In this document: in pieces, positions 8,922 to 25,579 of the stretch
Position numbering within the stretch: position 1 is the first letter of the stretch
Layout of the letters: the number at the start of each line of letters is the position of its first letter
IMG/VR virus record: IMGVR_UViG_3300025889_000582
Span: 1 to 31,244 of that record
Length of the DNA stretch: 31,244 nt
Reading direction: 5' to 3' (one strand)
From: a virus
Translations under genes and position numbers: made by a program
Notes under the pieces: generated by a model
What the model was told of the DNA's origin: nothing
Seen by the model: only the letters and a program-made list of their open reading frames with translations
Databases searched by the model: none

Positions 8922-9119
8922 TTAATCCCAAAATTTAACGTTGTCTTTCACCATCTTAGGCTCGCACCAGGCAGTAATCTTATATTGACCATTATCGGAC
9001 GAACCTTTTTCTAGCGCACCTGCGAAGAAGTTACATCGATTCACATTGCGGAAGTACATCATTTCGGTATCCCGCATCTCACCGTTGACCATAATCATTA
9101 ACATAAATGCCATGATCAT
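8922..9119 (-). CDS. Small membrane-anchored protein with three Cys or fewer, 65 aa
   Basis: ATG 9119 overlaps the stop of the upstream gene (ATGA). Residues 1-11 (MIMAFMLMIMV) are strongly hydrophobic but short for a full membrane span. The rest is polar with C29 (NRCNFFAGAL) and C52 (AWCEPKMV). The form recalls small phage lysis accessory proteins with an exported Cys domain. I see no lipobox, so an outer-membrane spanin cannot be claimed. Its place between a coiled-coil membrane protein and the holin supports a lysis or envelope role by context only. Confidence 0.55.
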   Translation of the reverse strand: MIMAFMLMIMVNGEMRDTEMMYFRNVNRCNFFAGALEKGSSDNGQYKITAWCEPKMVKDNVKFWD

Positions 9120-9574
9120 CTCATTCGCACCCAGAGATATAAAGCGCCTAGTAAAAGAACCATGAATGAGATCCCAGAGAACAGAATGGTTCCTAGTAAT
9201 TTCATGGTCTTGCGGAACTCTTTGCGCTTGGCTCTTAGTTTAGCGACTTCTTTCTCATGAGCAAGCCGTGACTCTTCCATCCTTTGTTTGATGGATCGGT
9301 AGAGATCACCTTGTCCTTGAAGCAGGCATATATCTTGCAGTTGTCGGTCAAAGTTAGCCAGTTGCCGCGTGACAGACTCCATCTGAAGCGCCTCTTTGTA
9401 CGACATCACACCAGCGCCTTTCTTCTCAGCTTCTTGGGCTTTCTCAGTAGCCTCTGCCCATCTACCTACCACAGCAGAAAGATCGCCTGCGTGACCCGCT
9501 GACTCTTTCAGGGAACTGATGGCAGAATTAACTGCCTGGACTGCTGCGATTGCTGCGCTGATTTCTGCGATCAT
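9116..9574 (-). CDS. Coiled-coil protein with C-terminal membrane anchor, 152 aa
   Basis: The first about 40 residues are Ala-rich helix (MIAEISAAIAAVQAVNSAI). A long charged helix follows (about 45-125), including RSIKQRMEESRLAHEKEVAKL, with heptad-like spacing. One membrane segment (about 128-148, GTILFSGISFMVLLLGALYLW in part) ends the protein. A GAGGTGAAGT ribosome site precedes the ATG. The layout is reversed relative to an inner-membrane spanin, whose anchor is N-terminal. It sits in the lysis/membrane cluster. Function is not established. Confidence 0.65.
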   Translation of the reverse strand: MIAEISAAIAAVQAVNSAISSLKESAGHAGDLSAVVGRWAEATEKAQEAEKKGAGVMSYKEALQMESVTRQLANFDRQLQDICLLQGQGDLYRSIKQRMEESRLAHEKEVAKLRAKRKEFRKTMKLLGTILFSGISFMVLLLGALYLWVRMR

Positions 9575-10125: not shown

Positions 10126-10424
10126 TACCAAGGCACTCCATTAGCCTGAGTTGGGTTCTTGTCAGATTCAATCTTAGCTGCCAGAGATGCTTCAATAGCG
10201 TCCTTGTCTACACCGTTGTCCCAGCACCACTGTAAGACTTCAGCTTCCGTGAGGCTGTCATAAGCCACGAAGGAAGGATCTGAAGGGTCTGGTGAAAACC
10301 CACAAGTGCCGTAGGATGATGCAGAGTAGTCTCCGTCTACGTCAGTAGCTCGCCAGTGTGCAACAGTTACGCCACCGTCAGCAAGAGTTCTTTCAAGTGT
10401 TGAGATTGTCCATGTTGTTGCCAT
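10125..10424 (-). CDS. DUF7936-like protein, 99 aa
   Basis: The protein starts MATTWTISTLERTLADGGVT and continues with AHWRATDVDGDYSASSYGT, an AYDSLTEAEVLQW motif, and the ending NPTQANGVPW. This set matches a small family found beside tail-fibre genes in aquatic phages (I recall it as DUF7936). Function is unknown; a virion or fibre-associated role is possible. The ATG overlaps the fibre stop as TAATG, with AAGGAG upstream. Confidence 0.7.
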   Translation of the reverse strand: MATTWTISTLERTLADGGVTVAHWRATDVDGDYSASSYGTCGFSPDPSDPSFVAYDSLTEAEVLQWCWDNGVDKDAIEASLAAKIESDKNPTQANGVPW

Positions 10425-12469
10425 TAGTTAGCTCCTTCTAGTTGTGCGATACGTGCAGTTAGTGATTCAATTAGGTCTTGTTGTTCTTGGATGGCTTTAA
10501 TTAAAATAAATGTAAAGTCAGAGCCTTTTAGATTTTTTCTTACACCAGCACCTTCAAGTTCATGCTCTACAATTAAATGCGGAAAAATTTGTTCTACTTC
10601 TTGAGCAATCAAACCAATGTTCTTGTCTTCGGTGTCTTCTTGATTGTTCCAGTGATAATCAACGACACGAAGATTTTTAAGATCGTCAAGATACCCATCT
10701 CTAGTAGTTACAATGTTTTTCTTTTGGCGTTCATCTGAAGTGAAAGACGAAGAACCATCGCCATAAAGATAATAAGAAGCAACACCTTGAGTAGTAGATT
10801 TTAAGTGATAACAATTAGTGTTGTTTGCCGTTGAAGGTAAACTTGTACCTAAAGCCTGTACTCCGCTTGTGCCAGAATTTGGGTTGTTGAAAAAACCAGC
10901 AGGCGTTGATGTAGAAGAATGTTCAACACAAAATCTTCCAGCGGAGCTCGGCGTCCCAACCAACAAGTTGCCAGAGCTATCAAACCTAGCGGCTTCGGAA
11001 TTGCCAGTAAAGAAACGCATCACGTTGCTGCCAGTCATGGCGATAAACGTGTCTGTATCATCTGTACCTACGAAATTGTCAGCCATTGCGTTGCCTGACA
11101 GGTAGAGGTCTTTGAATCGGTAAGAGCTGTATCCAATATCTATTGCCGCATCCCGTCCAGCATTGGTGGATGCGTTGTGTGGAAAAATTGCATCAACGCC
11201 ATCATGAAACATGATTGCAGTATCGCCATTTCCTATATATAAGTCGGAATTACTTGTTTCACTACCAATACTACCGACTGTGGTGCCGTCTTTCTGTAGC
11301 GAAACAATAGTGCCGTCGTTTGTTTCTCTGTTGAAAATAGCGGCTTCGTCTCCTGAGCGCGAAGCACGAACGTAACCACTAGTGCCTATATCAACACCGC
11401 CTGTTCCATTTAAGGAGATATGCCCAACCAACAAGTTGCCGCTTGCATCCAGCGTCATTGCTTGAGCCCACGATATTGTAGAGTCCGCAGCACCCGATAT
11501 CGTGTTGTACCATTTATGCACGCCAAACGATTGTTCGTATAAAGATGCAGCGTTTGCGTTCAACCTTTTCCAATCTGCATTAAAGTAACTTTGACCGCCC
11601 ACATAGAAATAATCAGAACTTTGCGAGCCTACCCAGCCGCCTTTAACCACAAGCGATTTGAATGTTGTATCCCAAACAGGTGTAGTGTTTGATAGCCTGA
11701 CTTGCCCCTGCGCGTCAATGCGCATGGCTTCTGTGGCATCTCTAAAGAAGGTCAATGCACCGCTTGTATTTTGTATGCTGTGTTGGGTTGTTCCATTACT
11801 TAAATAAAATATTGGTGTTCCGCCACTTACATAAGAACGAACTGCACCATTGACATCTAGTTTAGTTCCTGGAGATGCGTGTCCAATCCCGACGTTGCCC
11901 TGAGCAATGTAGTTATCACCACCATCTGTATCGAATTGCAGTTGAACATTGCCTGAAGAATCATAGCCTCTAATAAGACCATCATCAGAAGCGTCTGTTT
12001 GCACTACTAAACCACCACCTGCTCCGCTGTTTGCTCTAAGCGTTGCAAGAACTTGCTGAGTCCCAGAAGGAGAAACAGTCAAACCGTCGCTAACCAAAGT
12101 ACCCGTTACGTCGATGCCTGTGGAAGTGGTGGCTAGTTTGGCTGAATCATCGTGATAAAGGGTAACAGCGCCATCAGCAACAGCGGTTATCATGTATTCG
12201 CCAGTATACTTATGTATTTCTACAGCATCATTACCACGTAAAATAAGTTTGCCTGTTCCTGCGTCATCAATGCGACTATGACTACCATCATGATAAATCT
12301 GTAGGTCTTGAGAATTCCCCAGGCGAATCTTCTCGTTATCACCGAGATCGATCTGATCAACGTTAATCGTATCAGCCTGGACTTTGACATTACCGCCAGA
12401 ACGGACTGCAATAAGATAGTCCGTCGGTAGTAATGATCCACCATCTGAAAGCTCTGAAATCTTAGACAT
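10424..12469 (-). CDS. Tail fibre with C-terminal S74 intramolecular chaperone
   Basis: This 681-aa protein has a short N-terminal attachment region (MSKISELSDGGSLLPTDYLI), a long central part with repeated SGNLLVG-type blocks and many Gly/Ser/Asn (beta-rich shaft and receptor parts), and a C-terminal peptidase S74 domain. S578 begins SDERQKKNI; K583 at +5 forms the Ser-Lys dyad, and NIGLIAQEVEQIFP follows. In this family the chaperone trimerises the fibre and then cuts itself off before the Ser. The last about 104 residues should therefore be absent from virions. AGAGGTGACTT precedes the ATG. Confidence 0.85.
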   Translation of the reverse strand: MSKISELSDGGSLLPTDYLIAVRSGGNVKVQADTINVDQIDLGDNEKIRLGNSQDLQIYHDGSHSRIDDAGTGKLILRGNDAVEIHKYTGEYMITAVADGAVTLYHDDSAKLATTSTGIDVTGTLVSDGLTVSPSGTQQVLATLRANSGAGGGLVVQTDASDDGLIRGYDSSGNVQLQFDTDGGDNYIAQGNVGIGHASPGTKLDVNGAVRSYVSGGTPIFYLSNGTTQHSIQNTSGALTFFRDATEAMRIDAQGQVRLSNTTPVWDTTFKSLVVKGGWVGSQSSDYFYVGGQSYFNADWKRLNANAASLYEQSFGVHKWYNTISGAADSTISWAQAMTLDASGNLLVGHISLNGTGGVDIGTSGYVRASRSGDEAAIFNRETNDGTIVSLQKDGTTVGSIGSETSNSDLYIGNGDTAIMFHDGVDAIFPHNASTNAGRDAAIDIGYSSYRFKDLYLSGNAMADNFVGTDDTDTFIAMTGSNVMRFFTGNSEAARFDSSGNLLVGTPSSAGRFCVEHSSTSTPAGFFNNPNSGTSGVQALGTSLPSTANNTNCYHLKSTTQGVASYYLYGDGSSSFTSDERQKKNIVTTRDGYLDDLKNLRVVDYHWNNQEDTEDKNIGLIAQEVEQIFPHLIVEHELEGAGVRKNLKGSDFTFILIKAIQEQQDLIESLTARIAQLEGAN

Positions 12470-18531: not shown

Positions 18532-19148
18532 GCTAGAACATCTTCTATTGCTTCTATTTTGAAGTTAGATACTCGACCTGGGCGCGTATCCCATGACGCA
18601 GTAGACGTAACGATCATCACCGCTAAAGGCGTGACAAAGTTGATAGGATCGTTATCATCCGGTGATTGTCTCAATGGTGGTGCAATAGGAATCGTGATTT
18701 CACCGATTCCGCTGGTAGAACAATCAGCCGTGACGATGTGAAACTCGTTATTAAACGCCACATAATCACCAGCTTTGAAATAGTTCGTATTGCTTAAATC
18801 AGCACCATCAGCAATCACGCTAGAACCAGTCTGGCTTGCGCCTTTAACCTTCAGGTTTGTAACAGAATCACCGCTAGGCGCATTACCTGATCGGTTATAT
18901 CCGTAATCAGTGAAATACATCCTATGGACTTGCCCATCTAGCTTAGCCAGGAATGCTTGCATCTTGGCCCTGTCGGAACCAGTCAGATTATTAAACGTCG
19001 CGGTGGTCTTCCAATACGAACCTTTCCTAGTCGTTGTCTGAATGGCATTGGTCAGCGGAGACTGAAACATCTTGGTATTCGTTACCAGTTCCCAGGTCTG
19101 AGTAGTCGGAGTTACACCGACATCTGTGGCGAATGTATAAGTTGTCAT
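18528..19148 (-). CDS. Distal-tail (M-like) minor tail protein
   Basis: This 206-aa beta-rich protein starts MTTYTFATDVGVTPTTQTW and has FQSPLTNAIQTTTRKGSYWK, a block MQAFLAKLDGQVHRMYFTDY, and the ending TRPGRVSNFKIEAIEDVLA. Proteins of this form follow the tape measure in lambda-like tails and build the junction between tube and tip. The assignment rests on order, length and general sequence feel rather than on a catalytic motif. It is coupled to the tape measure by ATGA. Confidence 0.65.
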   Translation of the reverse strand: MTTYTFATDVGVTPTTQTWELVTNTKMFQSPLTNAIQTTTRKGSYWKTTATFNNLTGSDRAKMQAFLAKLDGQVHRMYFTDYGYNRSGNAPSGDSVTNLKVKGASQTGSSVIADGADLSNTNYFKAGDYVAFNNEFHIVTADCSTSGIGEITIPIAPPLRQSPDDNDPINFVTPLAVMIVTSTASWDTRPGRVSNFKIEAIEDVLA

Positions 19149-21004
19149 GCGAACCGCCTTCTACGCATCAAGTCTTGCACAGTAGCGATAGTCTGTTGTG
19201 ACGTTACTTGCATGGCTTGCTGGATCTTGATATCTACTTCTGGGCCTGCGCCTCTAGCATCTACGTTATTAATGATAGTGATACCTTGACCGCCTTTTGT
19301 ATGATCAACAACCGTTTCGTTCGGATGGAGCATAGCAGGGAATCCACCCTTGCCATCCATACCGCCAGCCCTAGCACCAAACCCAGTGAAACCACCACCT
19401 TCGAATGACTGAGCTTTGATCTGGGCTACTTGCGCCAAACCAGCGGCTACCTGCGCCCCTGCCATGATGAAACTTAGCGGCGGTGGATAGCTAGATAATG
19501 CAAGAGTAGCGCCCTGGTAGGTTTGCATGATCGCTTGTGCAATCTGAAATGCCTTATTAAGTTGAAAGAGCTTTTTATTATTACTTGCTACGCCTGCGAA
19601 CTGACTGCCTAATTCACCAAGAACGTGGGCAGTCTGAGCCGTAGTTGATTTCATCATGAATTCGTCGTATTTCTTTTGACCTTTGATCTTTTGCTCTTGG
19701 AAGAAACTCATTTTTTCAACGACTTTCTTTCCTTTCTTATCTTCTTCATCTTCCATGCCGCCAGTGACACCAGCAATTTGCTCTGCTGTCCTTCTGACGC
19801 TTGCTTGTATTTCTTCAAATCTAGTTAAAAGAGCATCTCCAGGCGGCGGGTTTGTTAGAAGATTAGCCAACTCGACCTGCGTAGCTTGGAGTGCTGCTTT
19901 CGTTTCTTCAAAGGATTCTGCGAATTCGTTTTTTTCAGCGACAAGCGTTCCGTTCCGATATGCCTCAGTCAGACGATCAATTTCTCGTCTAGCGTCAATC
20001 GCGCCGATTTCGCCTTTATGCATCTGCAATTCGACAGCTTGAATCTGTTTTTTTAATTCATTGACGTTAGATCGATCAAGAATGCCTGCAACCGTGTTTT
20101 CGATTTCCTTATAAAATAGAAGGACTTCTAATCCCATCGCTTTGACAGTGACGAACGCTGTCTTGATTGAATTGATTGCATTGAGAACGTTTGCGAAACT
20201 ATTCACAACAGCGTTTGCGACTCGTTGACCTATTGTTCCGAAGTCTTCTGAATCTAACGCTGACTGTCTGAAGCCGTTAGCTATCCCATAGATGATTGGT
20301 GAAAATGCAGTCGCAAGCTGATTGCCTAACCCAGTGAATACTGCCTTGGCGCGAGTAACTTCATCATTCGCCATCTCAATTTGAGCCGCATCGACTCGAG
20401 ATACTGCAAGCCCTAACTTCTGAGATTCTTCGGCCATTTGTCGAAGACCATCAGCACCAAGACCTAGCGTGTTGACCAATGCAACACCTTCAGAATCAAA
20501 TAGCTTCATGGCCAATCTGACACGATCAGACTGGGATTCAACGCCACCCATAGCTTCAGCAATCTTTTCCATTTGCTGATCTAGTGGTAGTTTTTGTAGT
20601 TTTTGCGCGTTTAAACCAAGCTCTATCAATGCGCCTTTGGCTTCGCCTGTTCCATTAGCAGCTTCAGCGACTCGTCTTACAAGTCTCTGCATTGCCATGT
20701 CAAGCGTTGATGTTGATACGCCTGTTATTTCAGCAGCATGACGTAAACCAGAAAGGGCCTCAGTCGTTGCTCCGATTTTGTCTGCTGTTTTTGCGAGATT
20801 GTCGATAGATTCCATCGACATTTTGGTTAGTGCTGCGGTGGCCGCTGTGCCGACAGTAGCGAATGCGATGCCTATTTTTGCGACCTTGATAGACGTTTGA
20901 GCCGCGACACTGCCTATAGATGAAAGACCTTTAGAAGCCTTGCCAAAGACCCTAGAAAACTGGTCTTCTGCGCTTATTGGAATTCTAACGGGATTTGCTG
21001 CCAC
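19145..21004 (-). CDS. Tape measure protein
   Basis: This 619-aa protein starts at GTG 21004 with GAGGTG 8 nt upstream. It shows the usual N-terminal SAEDQFSRVFGKASKGLSSI, a TMP core with KTADKIGATTEALSGLRHAA, long helical stretches, hydrophobic segments around residues 495-535 (LALSSYPPPLSFIMAGAQVA in part), and a glycine-rich C-terminus with HPNETVVDH. It sets tail length. At about 0.15 nm per residue the tail would be roughly 90 nm, shorter than lambda's. Its first 20 nt overlap the T extension of the tail chaperone. Confidence 0.9.
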   Translation of the reverse strand: MAANPVRIPISAEDQFSRVFGKASKGLSSIGSVAAQTSIKVAKIGIAFATVGTAATAALTKMSMESIDNLAKTADKIGATTEALSGLRHAAEITGVSTSTLDMAMQRLVRRVAEAANGTGEAKGALIELGLNAQKLQKLPLDQQMEKIAEAMGGVESQSDRVRLAMKLFDSEGVALVNTLGLGADGLRQMAEESQKLGLAVSRVDAAQIEMANDEVTRAKAVFTGLGNQLATAFSPIIYGIANGFRQSALDSEDFGTIGQRVANAVVNSFANVLNAINSIKTAFVTVKAMGLEVLLFYKEIENTVAGILDRSNVNELKKQIQAVELQMHKGEIGAIDARREIDRLTEAYRNGTLVAEKNEFAESFEETKAALQATQVELANLLTNPPPGDALLTRFEEIQASVRRTAEQIAGVTGGMEDEEDKKGKKVVEKMSFFQEQKIKGQKKYDEFMMKSTTAQTAHVLGELGSQFAGVASNNKKLFQLNKAFQIAQAIMQTYQGATLALSSYPPPLSFIMAGAQVAAGLAQVAQIKAQSFEGGGFTGFGARAGGMDGKGGFPAMLHPNETVVDHTKGGQGITIINNVDARGAGPEVDIKIQQAMQVTSQQTIATVQDLMRRRRFA

Positions 21005-21134: not shown

Positions 21135-21469
21135 TTTCCCGATATGTCTTCCGCTTTGGGCTGCATTTCAGCGATTTCGCCAGCAACCCTAATTAACACG
21201 TCAGGATCGACCGAACGAAGGATCTCAACCATCTCCAACTTCTTGAAGCATGGTTCACCATTCTCATGCACTAGATAATAGATCAGCGTCAATGCCAATC
21301 CTTCATCCATCTTATCGCCAGTCAATTTAGACTGAATTTCCATCTTCTTTTTGACGGAAATCTGTGGCCGTACAAAATAACGACCACCCCATTCTGGAAT
21401 ATCTAGCGGCTTCGGTTCTTGAGCTAAAACGTCCTGATAATGTTGCTTCGCTTTTTCAAGGATGCTCAT
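21131..21469 (-). CDS. Tail assembly chaperone G-like protein
   Basis: This 112-aa protein has no transmembrane parts and starts MSILEKAKQHYQDVLAQEPK. It has a central PEWGGRYFVRPQISVKKKME and an acidic/helical C-terminus (VDPDVLIRVAGEIAEMQPKA). Position between tail tube and tape measure is that of lambda G. The last two sense codons, GGA AAC, lie inside the GGGAAAC slip site, and TGA follows at once. Most ribosomes should stop here; a fraction should continue as GT. Both forms are expected to coat the tape measure during tail assembly. Confidence 0.85.
   Translation of the reverse strand: MSILEKAKQHYQDVLAQEPKPLDIPEWGGRYFVRPQISVKKKMEIQSKLTGDKMDEGLALTLIYYLVHENGEPCFKKLEMVEILRSVDPDVLIRVAGEIAEMQPKAEDISGN
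21134..21140 (-). promoter_or_regulatory. Programmed -1 frameshift site GGGAAAC
   Basis: On the minus strand the heptamer G GGA AAC is in register with the G frame (X XXY YYZ) and is followed directly by TGA. Lambda uses GGGAAAG at the same place. A slip back by one base leads into CTG AAA AAC of the T frame. Confidence 0.8.
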
Positions 21470-21861
21470 TATGAAACAGTGCTAGCTGTTAATGCACCAG
21501 AACCTTGTAGCGTGATTGATGCTTCAACCATACCGTCAAACGACGCTGATCGACTTACGCCTGTAACGATAGCCGTTCCAGTGTAATAGGTATCACCAGT
21601 AGTAGCGCCTTCAGGATAGAAGCCAATCGTTACGCTAGATCCAACGGTTAATGCACCTTGCCCGTTAGTATCAGTTTCGTCCCAGTACACATCAGCAGAG
21701 CCAGTGAATGACGTAAGCGTTGAGATAAAAGTTCTCGCCGTGTCAGTCATTACTGTATCTTCAACAGTGTCGCCAGTTTCTTCGATGGAAAAAGATCGCA
21801 ATTCGGCAACCGTATTAGCGCCGACTTTGACGATACCATCACGTCCAATATGTGTTGCCAT
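21469..21861 (-). CDS. Major tail (tube) protein
   Basis: This 130-aa beta-rich protein starts MATHIGRDGIVKVGANTVAE and has FSIEETGDTVEDTVMTDTAR, a block TSFTGSADVYWDETDTNGQG, and later GTAIVTGVSRSASFDGMVEA. This is the common form of small tail-tube proteins, with a GSADVYWD-type core and a G-x-A-x-V-T-G-V strand. It precedes the chaperone gene, as expected. ATG 21861 overlaps the stop of the 51-aa gene as TAATG. Confidence 0.8.
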   Translation of the reverse strand: MATHIGRDGIVKVGANTVAELRSFSIEETGDTVEDTVMTDTARTFISTLTSFTGSADVYWDETDTNGQGALTVGSSVTIGFYPEGATTGDTYYTGTAIVTGVSRSASFDGMVEASITLQGSGALTASTVS

Positions 21862-23047: not shown

Positions 23048-24334
23048 TTAGCTAGCTACGATGTCCTTAATTACCGCGAAAGATTCGGGATAACGAAGAG
23101 CAACGTCCATGTCTTGGAAGAACGCCAATCGGGTTCCACCAGAAGTAGACAGGCTAGCTTGATCGACTACAACGTCAACGCCGCTATAGAACCCAAGCAT
23201 GATCTGGCTGAAATCGCCGTAGATCAATGCTGAAAGGTTCGTTCCCGTGCCTTTTGACAGGTCAGAAGGAACAAGCGTTGATGAAGCTACTCGCGTGCCG
23301 AGAACAGTTCCATCAGGATCCATGATGAAGTTACCTTCAACACCAGATGCTTGCTTGGATACAGTTCGCAGTGCAGCGATAACCTTGGGGTTGGTCAAGA
23401 AAGCAGTGTCGTTGATGATTGCATTATCAACTTCTACTTCTTTGATCATATCAACAACTTTAGCGTAAGTTACTGCGCCACCATTAGTGCCGATTGCAAC
23501 TACGTTAGTGCTGCCGTTGCCGATGATACCCGTAGGCTCGTTAGAACCGCCGCCTTCGATAGCAACTTCGTCAATCTTTCGTGCGAAAGTATTAACGATG
23601 TCGTTACGGAGAAGCTGTTCAACGCTGGGATCGCTCTGCATCATAAGCTTGCGCGAAACATCAACATATGCGGCCAGAGTCTTTGGCGACATCACGACTT
23701 GACTGAATACTGCTGCGCCTTCAGACGGTGCTGAACCTTCAGCAACGAATGCTGAGTTGCTTACAGAAGTAGCCAGTTTCGGGATAGATACATCGCCTTT
23801 CAGACCTTGCATTACCCTTGCGCCAAGCTGCGTGATAGCCAGTCGAGCATAAAGTGCTTCAACGAACTGATCAGCCATGTGATCGGTAGAAACAAGATAA
23901 CCACCTTGGCTATCTGTTCCAACAGTTTGATCACGCTTGCCCCAGTTGATGTTGGCAGGAACATAGAAGCCACGAGCTTCTTTGCCAGCACGTCGAGCAA
24001 TCTCGTCTGAGATTTCACGCTCATAACCAGCGTCACGCCAATCGTTAGAGACTTGAGCCTTGATAGCGCGAAGCAGGCTGTATTGACGCTGTTCCTTCGG
24101 AGCAATGTCTACAACAGCAGCAGGCGTTTCAAGCGGCTTGTCATTACGGATAGCTTCGAGCAATTCGCCACGGAATTGTTCTACGCTTACACCGCGTTCT
24201 ACAGCTTTGTCAGCGAGTTCACGCTGATTGTGATGCTTTCCAAGTGCAATGATTTCAGCGGCTGAACGGAACGCAGCAGCCTTAGCTTCTTCACCAACTT
24301 GGCGAACATCGACTGAGTTTTCTTCAACAGTCAT
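23048..24334 (-). CDS. Major capsid protein from an internal start (nested, in frame)
   Basis: Within the fusion, ATG 24334 (Met416, MTVEENSVDVRQVGEEAKAA) is preceded by AAAGAGGTG and a 6-nt spacer, one of the best ribosome sites in the window. It falls exactly between the protease and the capsid delta region. The product would be 428 aa, the normal size of an HK97-type capsid precursor: N-terminal helical delta part to about residue 110, then the shell domain. This would supply free capsid protein in excess of the fusion. Confidence 0.75.
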   Translation of the reverse strand: MTVEENSVDVRQVGEEAKAAAFRSAAEIIALGKHHNQRELADKAVERGVSVEQFRGELLEAIRNDKPLETPAAVVDIAPKEQRQYSLLRAIKAQVSNDWRDAGYEREISDEIARRAGKEARGFYVPANINWGKRDQTVGTDSQGGYLVSTDHMADQFVEALYARLAITQLGARVMQGLKGDVSIPKLATSVSNSAFVAEGSAPSEGAAVFSQVVMSPKTLAAYVDVSRKLMMQSDPSVEQLLRNDIVNTFARKIDEVAIEGGGSNEPTGIIGNGSTNVVAIGTNGGAVTYAKVVDMIKEVEVDNAIINDTAFLTNPKVIAALRTVSKQASGVEGNFIMDPDGTVLGTRVASSTLVPSDLSKGTGTNLSALIYGDFSQIMLGFYSGVDVVVDQASLSTSGGTRLAFFQDMDVALRYPESFAVIKDIVAS

Positions 24335-25579
24335 TGGGATCACCTCTTTATTGGGTTGAGTTTTTGATCGGCCTACACCGACGAACTTAGAAGAATCAGC
24401 AGGGATTGAAACAATGGAAGCCTCCATTGGAGTCCAACTAGCCCTGAAGTATTCTTTGCCATTGTCGCCTTTGGCTCGAACCATTCGATTGATGCTATAA
24501 CCGACACTAATGTTTTGCTTAATGCCTGCTTTCACATCTTCAAAAACCTCTTGAGCTAAGGCAGATTTTCCAAATTCCACCAAAGCAACGGTTCGCCGCT
24601 GCTTCTCGTCAAGGTAAAATTCACGCACTACGCCAATCTGTTCATTCATATCATGATTGTTCAGCAGCGGTGCGCGACCCGAAGACATAAACTCCATGTC
24701 TATATCTTCAGGATTATGGCTTAAAACTTCTAAGCCAAATTCTCGTTCTACTGGCGTTTCGCTTGAAACACCAATACGGACGATTCTTTTATCTTCGTCG
24801 ATGAATCCACGATCTAATTGAATAGACCGATAAACGATTTCTTCAGCCGAAAACCGACCTTCGATATCGTCTTTCATCGCGTCGTAATCTTCATCGCGTT
24901 CTTCAGATGATTCTTCTACGACTTCTTCAACATCCATGTGATGCTTCTCGAATTCGATTACGAATGAATCTTCTGTTTCTTCAACATTAATGATATGTCT
25001 TTCCATATCTTTAGACTCTATTGCAGGTTCAAATTTAATAGGCTTGAAATCATGCTCATCAAGCCATTGTTTAGCTTCTGCCACGGAATATCTATCAGCG
25101 TCAAAACGGATAGATTGTAATTCCGACTTTCCTTCTTTAATCCCTAAGATTATATCAATTCCTTCGCCTAATTCATTAGTTAATCTTCGGAATTCATCGT
25201 ATTTAGCAGGATCTTCTATTCTGGCTGCGTGTTCATTCGGATAGGGTCTTTGTTCTGCCCTATCGTCTTTGAGGCTTTCAACGATCTTCTTAGACCAGCT
25301 AAAGCCTGGATCACCGCCCCACAAGGCCCAGGCAATCCTGCCGTTAGATGGATAACCATCTTCTCCTGCATCAAATCCTTGGCCTTTCTTATCGACTTCA
25401 TGCCTAGAAAAGAACGAATACATTCTTTTCACAGTATCTTCCGAAAGGTTCTTGTTATTTACAATGTCCCTGGCTCTGGCAATGCCGACTTCAGTTCCAC
25501 CACGGCCAAACTCAGAACGCCAATCAAGGCCCTTCTGGGCTTCTTCAACCATTCCTTGAGTTGGCTTATAACTCGCCAT
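23048..25579 (-). CDS. Fusion: accessory modules, prohead protease and major capsid protein
   Basis: This 843-aa protein has four parts. Residues 1-105 hold a conserved phage module (GLDWRSEFGRGGTEVGIARA, later PSNGRIAWALWGGDPG). Residues about 150-210 hold a second module (LQSIRFDADRYSVAEAKQWL). Residues about 245-405 are an S78/U35-type prohead protease with His309 (LLNNHD) and Ser358 (QNISVGY). Residues 416-843 are an HK97-type delta region and capsid protein (SVSNSAFVAEGSAPSEGA; ending PESFAVIKDIVAS). Two stops in a row (TAA TAG) end it. Protease and capsid are usually separate genes. Self-cleavage is expected near residue 500-530 (inferred). Confidence 0.9.
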   Translation of the reverse strand: MASYKPTQGMVEEAQKGLDWRSEFGRGGTEVGIARARDIVNNKNLSEDTVKRMYSFFSRHEVDKKGQGFDAGEDGYPSNGRIAWALWGGDPGFSWSKKIVESLKDDRAEQRPYPNEHAARIEDPAKYDEFRRLTNELGEGIDIILGIKEGKSELQSIRFDADRYSVAEAKQWLDEHDFKPIKFEPAIESKDMERHIINVEETEDSFVIEFEKHHMDVEEVVEESSEERDEDYDAMKDDIEGRFSAEEIVYRSIQLDRGFIDEDKRIVRIGVSSETPVEREFGLEVLSHNPEDIDMEFMSSGRAPLLNNHDMNEQIGVVREFYLDEKQRRTVALVEFGKSALAQEVFEDVKAGIKQNISVGYSINRMVRAKGDNGKEYFRASWTPMEASIVSIPADSSKFVGVGRSKTQPNKEVIPMTVEENSVDVRQVGEEAKAAAFRSAAEIIALGKHHNQRELADKAVERGVSVEQFRGELLEAIRNDKPLETPAAVVDIAPKEQRQYSLLRAIKAQVSNDWRDAGYEREISDEIARRAGKEARGFYVPANINWGKRDQTVGTDSQGGYLVSTDHMADQFVEALYARLAITQLGARVMQGLKGDVSIPKLATSVSNSAFVAEGSAPSEGAAVFSQVVMSPKTLAAYVDVSRKLMMQSDPSVEQLLRNDIVNTFARKIDEVAIEGGGSNEPTGIIGNGSTNVVAIGTNGGAVTYAKVVDMIKEVEVDNAIINDTAFLTNPKVIAALRTVSKQASGVEGNFIMDPDGTVLGTRVASSTLVPSDLSKGTGTNLSALIYGDFSQIMLGFYSGVDVVVDQASLSTSGGTRLAFFQDMDVALRYPESFAVIKDIVAS
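24341..24349 (-). promoter_or_regulatory. Internal ribosome-binding site for the capsid protein
   Basis: AAAGAGGTG on the minus strand, 6 nt upstream of ATG 24334, inside the coding sequence of the protease-capsid fusion. The encoded residues there (KEVIP) are part of a linker with no fold constraint visible, so the site seems selected for initiation. Confidence 0.7.

Follow-up and report, generated by a model that had tools for sequence, protein, structure and literature searches.

The window, the whole stretch of 31,244 nucleotides that was analyzed, belongs to a marine phage and carries on its minus strand a gene in which prohead protease, delta domain and major capsid protein form one reading frame. 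The features of the locus, all on the minus strand, are these.

23048..25579, minus: protease-delta-capsid fusion gene, 843 aa, 93.1 kDa; uninterrupted ORF with an ATG start; phrog_617
25577..25579, minus: fusion start codon, with a weaker Shine-Dalgarno (SD; -3.9); overlaps the end of the portal gene
25265..25579, minus: N-terminal helical domain, residues 1-105; phrog_2859, E 3e-26; pLDDT mostly 84-95
25004..25006, minus: Met192, where relatives have a second putative nested start; its SD in the window is weak (-2.4)
24368..24802, minus: HK97-type prohead protease domain, residues 260-404; TIGR01543, E 2e-8, with fold matches and invariant residues
24338..24350, minus: putative internal Shine-Dalgarno, TAAAGAGGTGATC; -7.1 kcal/mol, the best among the in-frame ATGs of the gene
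24332..24334, minus: putative internal start ATG (Met416), in a predicted disordered linker; kept in relatives
23048..24334, minus: predicted nested capsid precursor gene, in frame from Met416, 428 aa, 45.7 kDa
23933..24334, minus: delta/scaffold domain, residues 416-549, helical in the AlphaFold model and placed before the HK97 core
23051..23932, minus: predicted mature capsid protein, residues 550-843 (294 residues, ~30.7 kDa); PF05065 at 559-838; cleavage point predicted

The window protein matches phrog_617 across both protease and capsid (E 9e-127; residues 258-840 against positions 19-624 of a 626-position profile). Its capsid part scores 125.1 bits with PF05065 (cut-off 24.2) and 122 bits with TIGR01554, the HK97-fold major capsid protein (cut-off 27.5), and the closest solved structure is 8gta, the capsid of the R4C virion (fold match E 1e-18). 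The protease part scored below the cut-off of TIGR01543, the HK97 prohead protease/peptidase S78 (34.5 bits against 59, E 2e-8), a Pfam search of the protein gave no protease domain match, and its score with NF045541, the prohead protease/MCP fusion, was 138.4 bits against a cut-off of 525. Because Foldseek on the whole fusion returned the capsid part only, we folded the protease separately. The AlphaFold model of that domain alone has a pLDDT of 87, and its top fold matches include herpesvirus assemblin and T4 gp21, with probabilities of 0.90-1.00 and E-values of only 5e-3 to 3e-2. His309 and Ser358, which are invariant across 52 sequences, are candidate catalytic residues. We conclude that the window protease is a diverged relative of the HK97 prohead protease (TIGR01543/peptidase S78) and works like it. 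In the predicted structure, residues 405-424, which include Met416, are disordered (pLDDT < 50), residues 425-545 are helical, and residues 547-570, the cleavage region, are again disordered. The N-terminal domain of ~105 aa (phrog_2859) has no assigned function; relatives L038, L044 and L046 have longer or other extensions, and in L030-L033 it is missing.

The sequence-only reading had proposed that this single frame of 843 codons contains a Shine-Dalgarno, a 6 nt spacer and an ATG at Met416 (base 24334), and the DNA reads exactly so. At the domain border the minus strand is CCCAATAAAGAGGTGATCCCA-ATG; this ATG is codon 416, and its A is base 24334. AAAGAGGTG is followed by the six bases ATCCCA and then by the ATG. 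TAAAGAGGTGATC-CCA-ATG is a near-perfect fit to the 16S anti-Shine-Dalgarno, and, as read off the sequence, 12 of the 13 positions of TAAAGAGGTGATC equal the canonical TAAGGAGGTGATC, to which the 16S rRNA tail is complementary over its full length. The duplex energy at Met416 is -7.1 kcal/mol, compared with +1.0 to -3.9 for the remaining in-frame ATGs of the gene and -3.9 for the fusion start. SDs of the GAGGT(GA) style also lie ahead of window genes 9116-9574, 10424-12469, 19145-21004 and 21469-21861. The predicted 428-aa product had been called a capsid precursor of normal length, and it does match the free-standing precursors of split-gene phages, which are ~397-439 aa long and have their own SD just past the protease stop; a search with PHROG 10 for further fusions gave mostly split genes and served as a length comparison only. 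Synonymous randomization of the window gene alone did not make the internal SD significant (p = 0.14). Because the SD could therefore be there by chance, the case depends on its conservation across relatives.

To survey those relatives, viral contigs were scanned with the window protein as query (74 loci), a second, wider scan of viral sequences gave 80 loci, and annotated phage records were added; the main set comprises 96 non-redundant fusions, and a stricter set 66. An in-frame ATG lies within 65 codons past the protease anchor, in the protease-delta linker, in 95 of the 96, and the sole exception, L124, has a GTG there with an SD of -7.2. By chance, an ATG would be expected in ~63% of 45-codon linkers; it was observed in 65 of 66. 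The site proposed from the window is indeed conserved among homologues: an SD of -4.3 kcal/mol or better combined with an ATG occurs in 81 of 96 junction windows and in 132 of 604 control windows (22%) from the same genes. With a threshold of -5.5 kcal/mol the counts are 73 of 96 against 79 of 604, and in the stricter set, at -4.3, they are 53 of 66 against 98 of 417. Expressed per ATG, an SD precedes 74% of junction ATGs, 21% of in-frame ATGs overall and 19% of out-of-frame ATGs. The nested frame has a median length of 438 aa among the relatives, close to the window's own. Close homologues that keep the fusion and lack an internal site, which would speak against the proposal, were essentially absent: every near relative with a readable border is an unbroken fusion with Met and SD there, even as the linker peptide differs. 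The internal site also occurs in distant fusions from gamma-, alpha- and epsilonproteobacterial phages, and the survey extends to cyanobacterial phages. In E. coli phage Bas97 the internal SD and start read gagggcattaga-ATG. Separately, a Helicobacter prophage (L097) whose fusion is very distant, at 22% identity, has a near-perfect AAAGGAGGCGAGT-ATG at residue 174, at the same border. In CRP-823 (L078, 1486-4414) the annotation divides the fusion into two 'major capsid' genes, as the result of a frameshift in the N-terminal region and not at the protease-capsid border.

We then looked at the shape of the signal, picking one ATG per gene blind to the SD. Mean affinity for the anti-SD forms a single sharp peak at -17 to -12 from the ATG, where as many as 69% of genes share a single offset; beyond the peak's flanks, within 60 nt, the share is about 0-18%. 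In 94% of the genes, the 60 nt surrounding the junction ATG show less structure than the remaining sequence (mean z +1.86). The AGG of the SD usually spans two codons, and this allows selection on the ribosome site to be told apart from conservation of the peptide: where Lys, Glu or Gln stands before a codon starting with G at the SD, the codon is xAG in 58 of 71 instances, whereas codon use in these genes predicts 32.5 (z 7.1), and in genes below 50% GC in 21 of 25, against 5.8 expected (z 7.4), while the encoded residues vary (K/E/Q, then V/D/E/G/A) and the core nucleotides persist. A per-gene synonymous test over the family reached significance only in combination (Fisher p 3e-6), the xAG|G test being the sharper of the two; in the sharpest tests, the pooled relatives are not entirely independent of each other. 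As judged from these patterns, selection acts on the SD nucleotides of the internal site, and an internal translation start in the window's fusion gene is very likely real.

There are exceptions. The Synechococcus phages S-CBS3 and S-LBS1, and the similar contigs L168 and L176, have retained the ATG but lack an SD before it (loci L081, L083, L168 and L176, all cyanophage or cyanophage-like). In the two Synechococcus phage records a few other genes were checked, about half of which likewise have a weak SD or none, and SD-independent starts are therefore plausible there. The SD of the junction ATG is also weak or missing in Murka, MQ-4, L113, L129, L141, L156 and L163, which include a few proteobacterial fusions.

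The virion of R4C bears on the fate of the fusion. Its gene product has 629 aa, and the capsid chain in 8gta is modeled for residues 362-629 only, the C-terminal 268 (PMC10276861), implying that the ordered shell of R4C contains nothing of the protease and delta part. Neither protease nor cleavage is mentioned in the paper on this virion (PMC10276861). The start of the 8gta chain aligns with window residue 559, and a conserved Arg just ahead of this ordered start suggests cleavage after KR549 in the window protein. The window capsid would then be cut after Lys548-Arg549 (KR|D).

Nested products have precedents in other capsid systems. The herpesvirus UL26/UL26.5 pair consists of a protease-scaffold and an abundant nested in-frame scaffold made from an internal promoter. 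The window shares with it the nested in-frame pair and a related protease fold, but UL26.5, besides having its own promoter, is scaffold only, whereas the nested product of the window includes the shell protein. The lambda C protease is of the ClpP-like/S49 type, in contrast to the HK97-type protease of the window. In lambda C/Nu3 a scaffold is nested in frame within the protease gene (Shaw and Murialdo 1980, as cited in PMC8508860). As in lambda, two in-frame products of the window, a long one with the protease and a shorter one, would have a common C-terminus, the shared part carrying the protease into the prohead, and the conserved same-frame internal ribosome site lies at the domain border. 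In lambda, however, Nu3 is scaffold only and the shell protein E has a separate gene, whereas the nested frame of the window takes in the capsid domain up to the stop codon and would encode scaffold plus shell protein. HK97 gp4/gp5 share with the window the HK97-type protease, the delta domain and the capsid fold, but they are separate genes, and the protease enters as a free protein. Gifsy-2 reportedly has a tripartite protease-scaffold-capsid gene. It and MD8 resemble the window in joining all three parts in one gene, but their protease is ClpP-like, whereas the N-terminal protease of the window is of the HK97 type. For the tripartite gene of Pseudomonas phage MD8 a nested start is not described (PMC8508860). 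Protease-capsid fusions as such are already known (phrog_617, NF045541); the entries NF045541 and PHROG 617 have the same domain order as the window, and neither mentions a nested start. In the open-access literature we found such fusions described and no nested capsid start within one, which, given that scope, is weak evidence of absence.

These observations lead us to a model that we consider likely to be correct: the conserved internal start yields a capsid precursor beside the fusion, and the protease is dosed by co-assembly. Ribosomes starting at base 25579 would make the 843-aa protease-delta-capsid fusion, and ribosomes starting at the internal SD and ATG 24334 would make, probably in excess, the delta-capsid precursor of 428 aa; both products would end, in frame, at the same C-terminus. 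Because their delta and capsid domains are identical, they would be able to co-assemble into one prohead lattice, into whose interior the minority fusion subunits would carry a fixed number of proteases. Once the prohead has assembled, the protease would cut off the delta domains (predicted to occur after Lys548-Arg549), and its own tether too, leaving a shell of identical ~30-kDa capsid chains. The conserved start, its SD, the unstructured context and the selection on SD nucleotides support this model at the level of sequence; product ratio, co-assembly, protease dosing and cleavage point are what we infer. Two points lend protease dosing some help: a rough estimate of volumes, given below, by which a fusion-only shell would come close to filling the prohead or exceed it, and an internal SD that in the window is stronger than that of the fusion. 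Of 20 annotated phages, however, only 12 show this difference, so that a minor share for the fusion does not follow in general from SD strength alone; translational coupling to the portal gene, and structure, will matter as further factors in the ratio. Since nearly all relatives, from very different bacteria, keep the site, the nested start is probably how such phages, the marine phage of the window and its relatives, load a limited amount of protease per shell.

Could all the capsid instead come from the 843-aa fusion, with the protease cut off each subunit and the internal site idle? Proteolysis alone could produce the C-terminal 268 residues seen in the R4C virion, and tripartite fusions have been described without a nested start in MD8 and, reportedly, in Gifsy-2. 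Such a scheme, however, leaves the conserved ATG and SD, and the synonymous selection on the SD, unexplained, and it faces a problem of space. The inner radius of an HK97-like prohead was taken as 19-22 nm, and as 20 nm for single estimates. On rough volumes, 415 fusion subunits of the window type would occupy ~94% of the cavity at 20 nm (70-109% at 19-22 nm). A fusion-only shell of the 1043-codon relative L046 would come to 127% at 20 nm and that of the longest relative to 95-148% at 19-22 nm; delta domains alone would fill 17-26%, and the shortest fusion members, fusion-only, 44-69%. Shells so near or over capacity are physically unlikely, the shortest members excepted, and we regard a polyprotein as the only source of capsid as unlikely.

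Two further explanations would keep the SD without giving it a present role in initiation, and both seem to us very improbable. The SD could be the decaying start of an old capsid gene that recently fused with the protease gene by loss of a stop, and split relatives do carry a capsid start with an SD just past the protease stop; yet no split gene was found among close or moderately distant relatives, and the site persists in very divergent fusions, under selection at the nucleotide level while the linker changes. Equally far-fetched in our view is that the SD merely slows elongating ribosomes, so that the protease folds first. Its location exactly in the predicted disordered linker between folded domains would suit such pausing, which, however, requires neither an ATG nor a set spacing; the near-universal ATG, the GTG of the one exception and the narrow SD-ATG spacing all point to initiation. 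Finally, the nested protein may be made as we propose and the fusion targeted for another purpose, such as portal-proximal placement or delivery of N-terminal cargo, rather than protease dosing. The N-terminal part does differ in size and identity between relatives, but it is the protease domain, with its invariant His and Ser, that is always there, and the N-terminal domain that is not; we give this variant little weight and favor dosing of the protease by co-assembly.

In many phages, annotation lists a fusion of this kind as one 'major capsid protein', and this leaves unexplained several hundred subunits with equally many proteases. A conserved nested start would answer how the shell avoids one protease per subunit, and would make protease dose a directly testable outcome of two ribosome sites. 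It would also bring the shell protein itself under the logic of lambda C/Nu3 and herpesvirus UL26/UL26.5. If so, annotation across the family gives the main capsid precursor a start and length that are incorrect or incomplete, including in the isolates R4C, RcRhea, VP882 and E. coli phage Bas97.

Additional nested starts may exist. In the ClpP-type, MD8-like fusions (L197, which is MD8 gp5, at residue 220, and L248-L277), an in-frame ATG with a GAGGA-type SD is conserved at the protease-scaffold border in each of the 15 aligned genes; it lies ~457-476 codons ahead of the stop, and the site lacks structure in every one of them (z 1.1 to 2.9). A synonymous test on these fusions was not significant, and the border peptide is conserved too, which makes the evidence weaker there; genes of the MD8 type hold a candidate nested start. 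We suggest, tentatively and as somewhat doubtful, that nested initiation is a general rule of all protease-capsid fusion phages, perhaps with separate origins in the HK97-type and ClpP-type groups. Some relatives would then make three products (N-domain fusion, protease fusion and capsid), and the ratio of starts would set both protease and N-terminal cargo per shell. Many relatives have a conserved Met with a strong SD at the border between N-terminal domain and protease (L013, L014, L017, L019, L027, L035, L050 and L079), the energies being -8.9 in L013, -7.2 in L017 and -9.2 in L050. In L033, which lacks the N-terminal domain, an SD-led ATG (-5.9) lies exactly at the Met192 position and is the apparent start of the gene.
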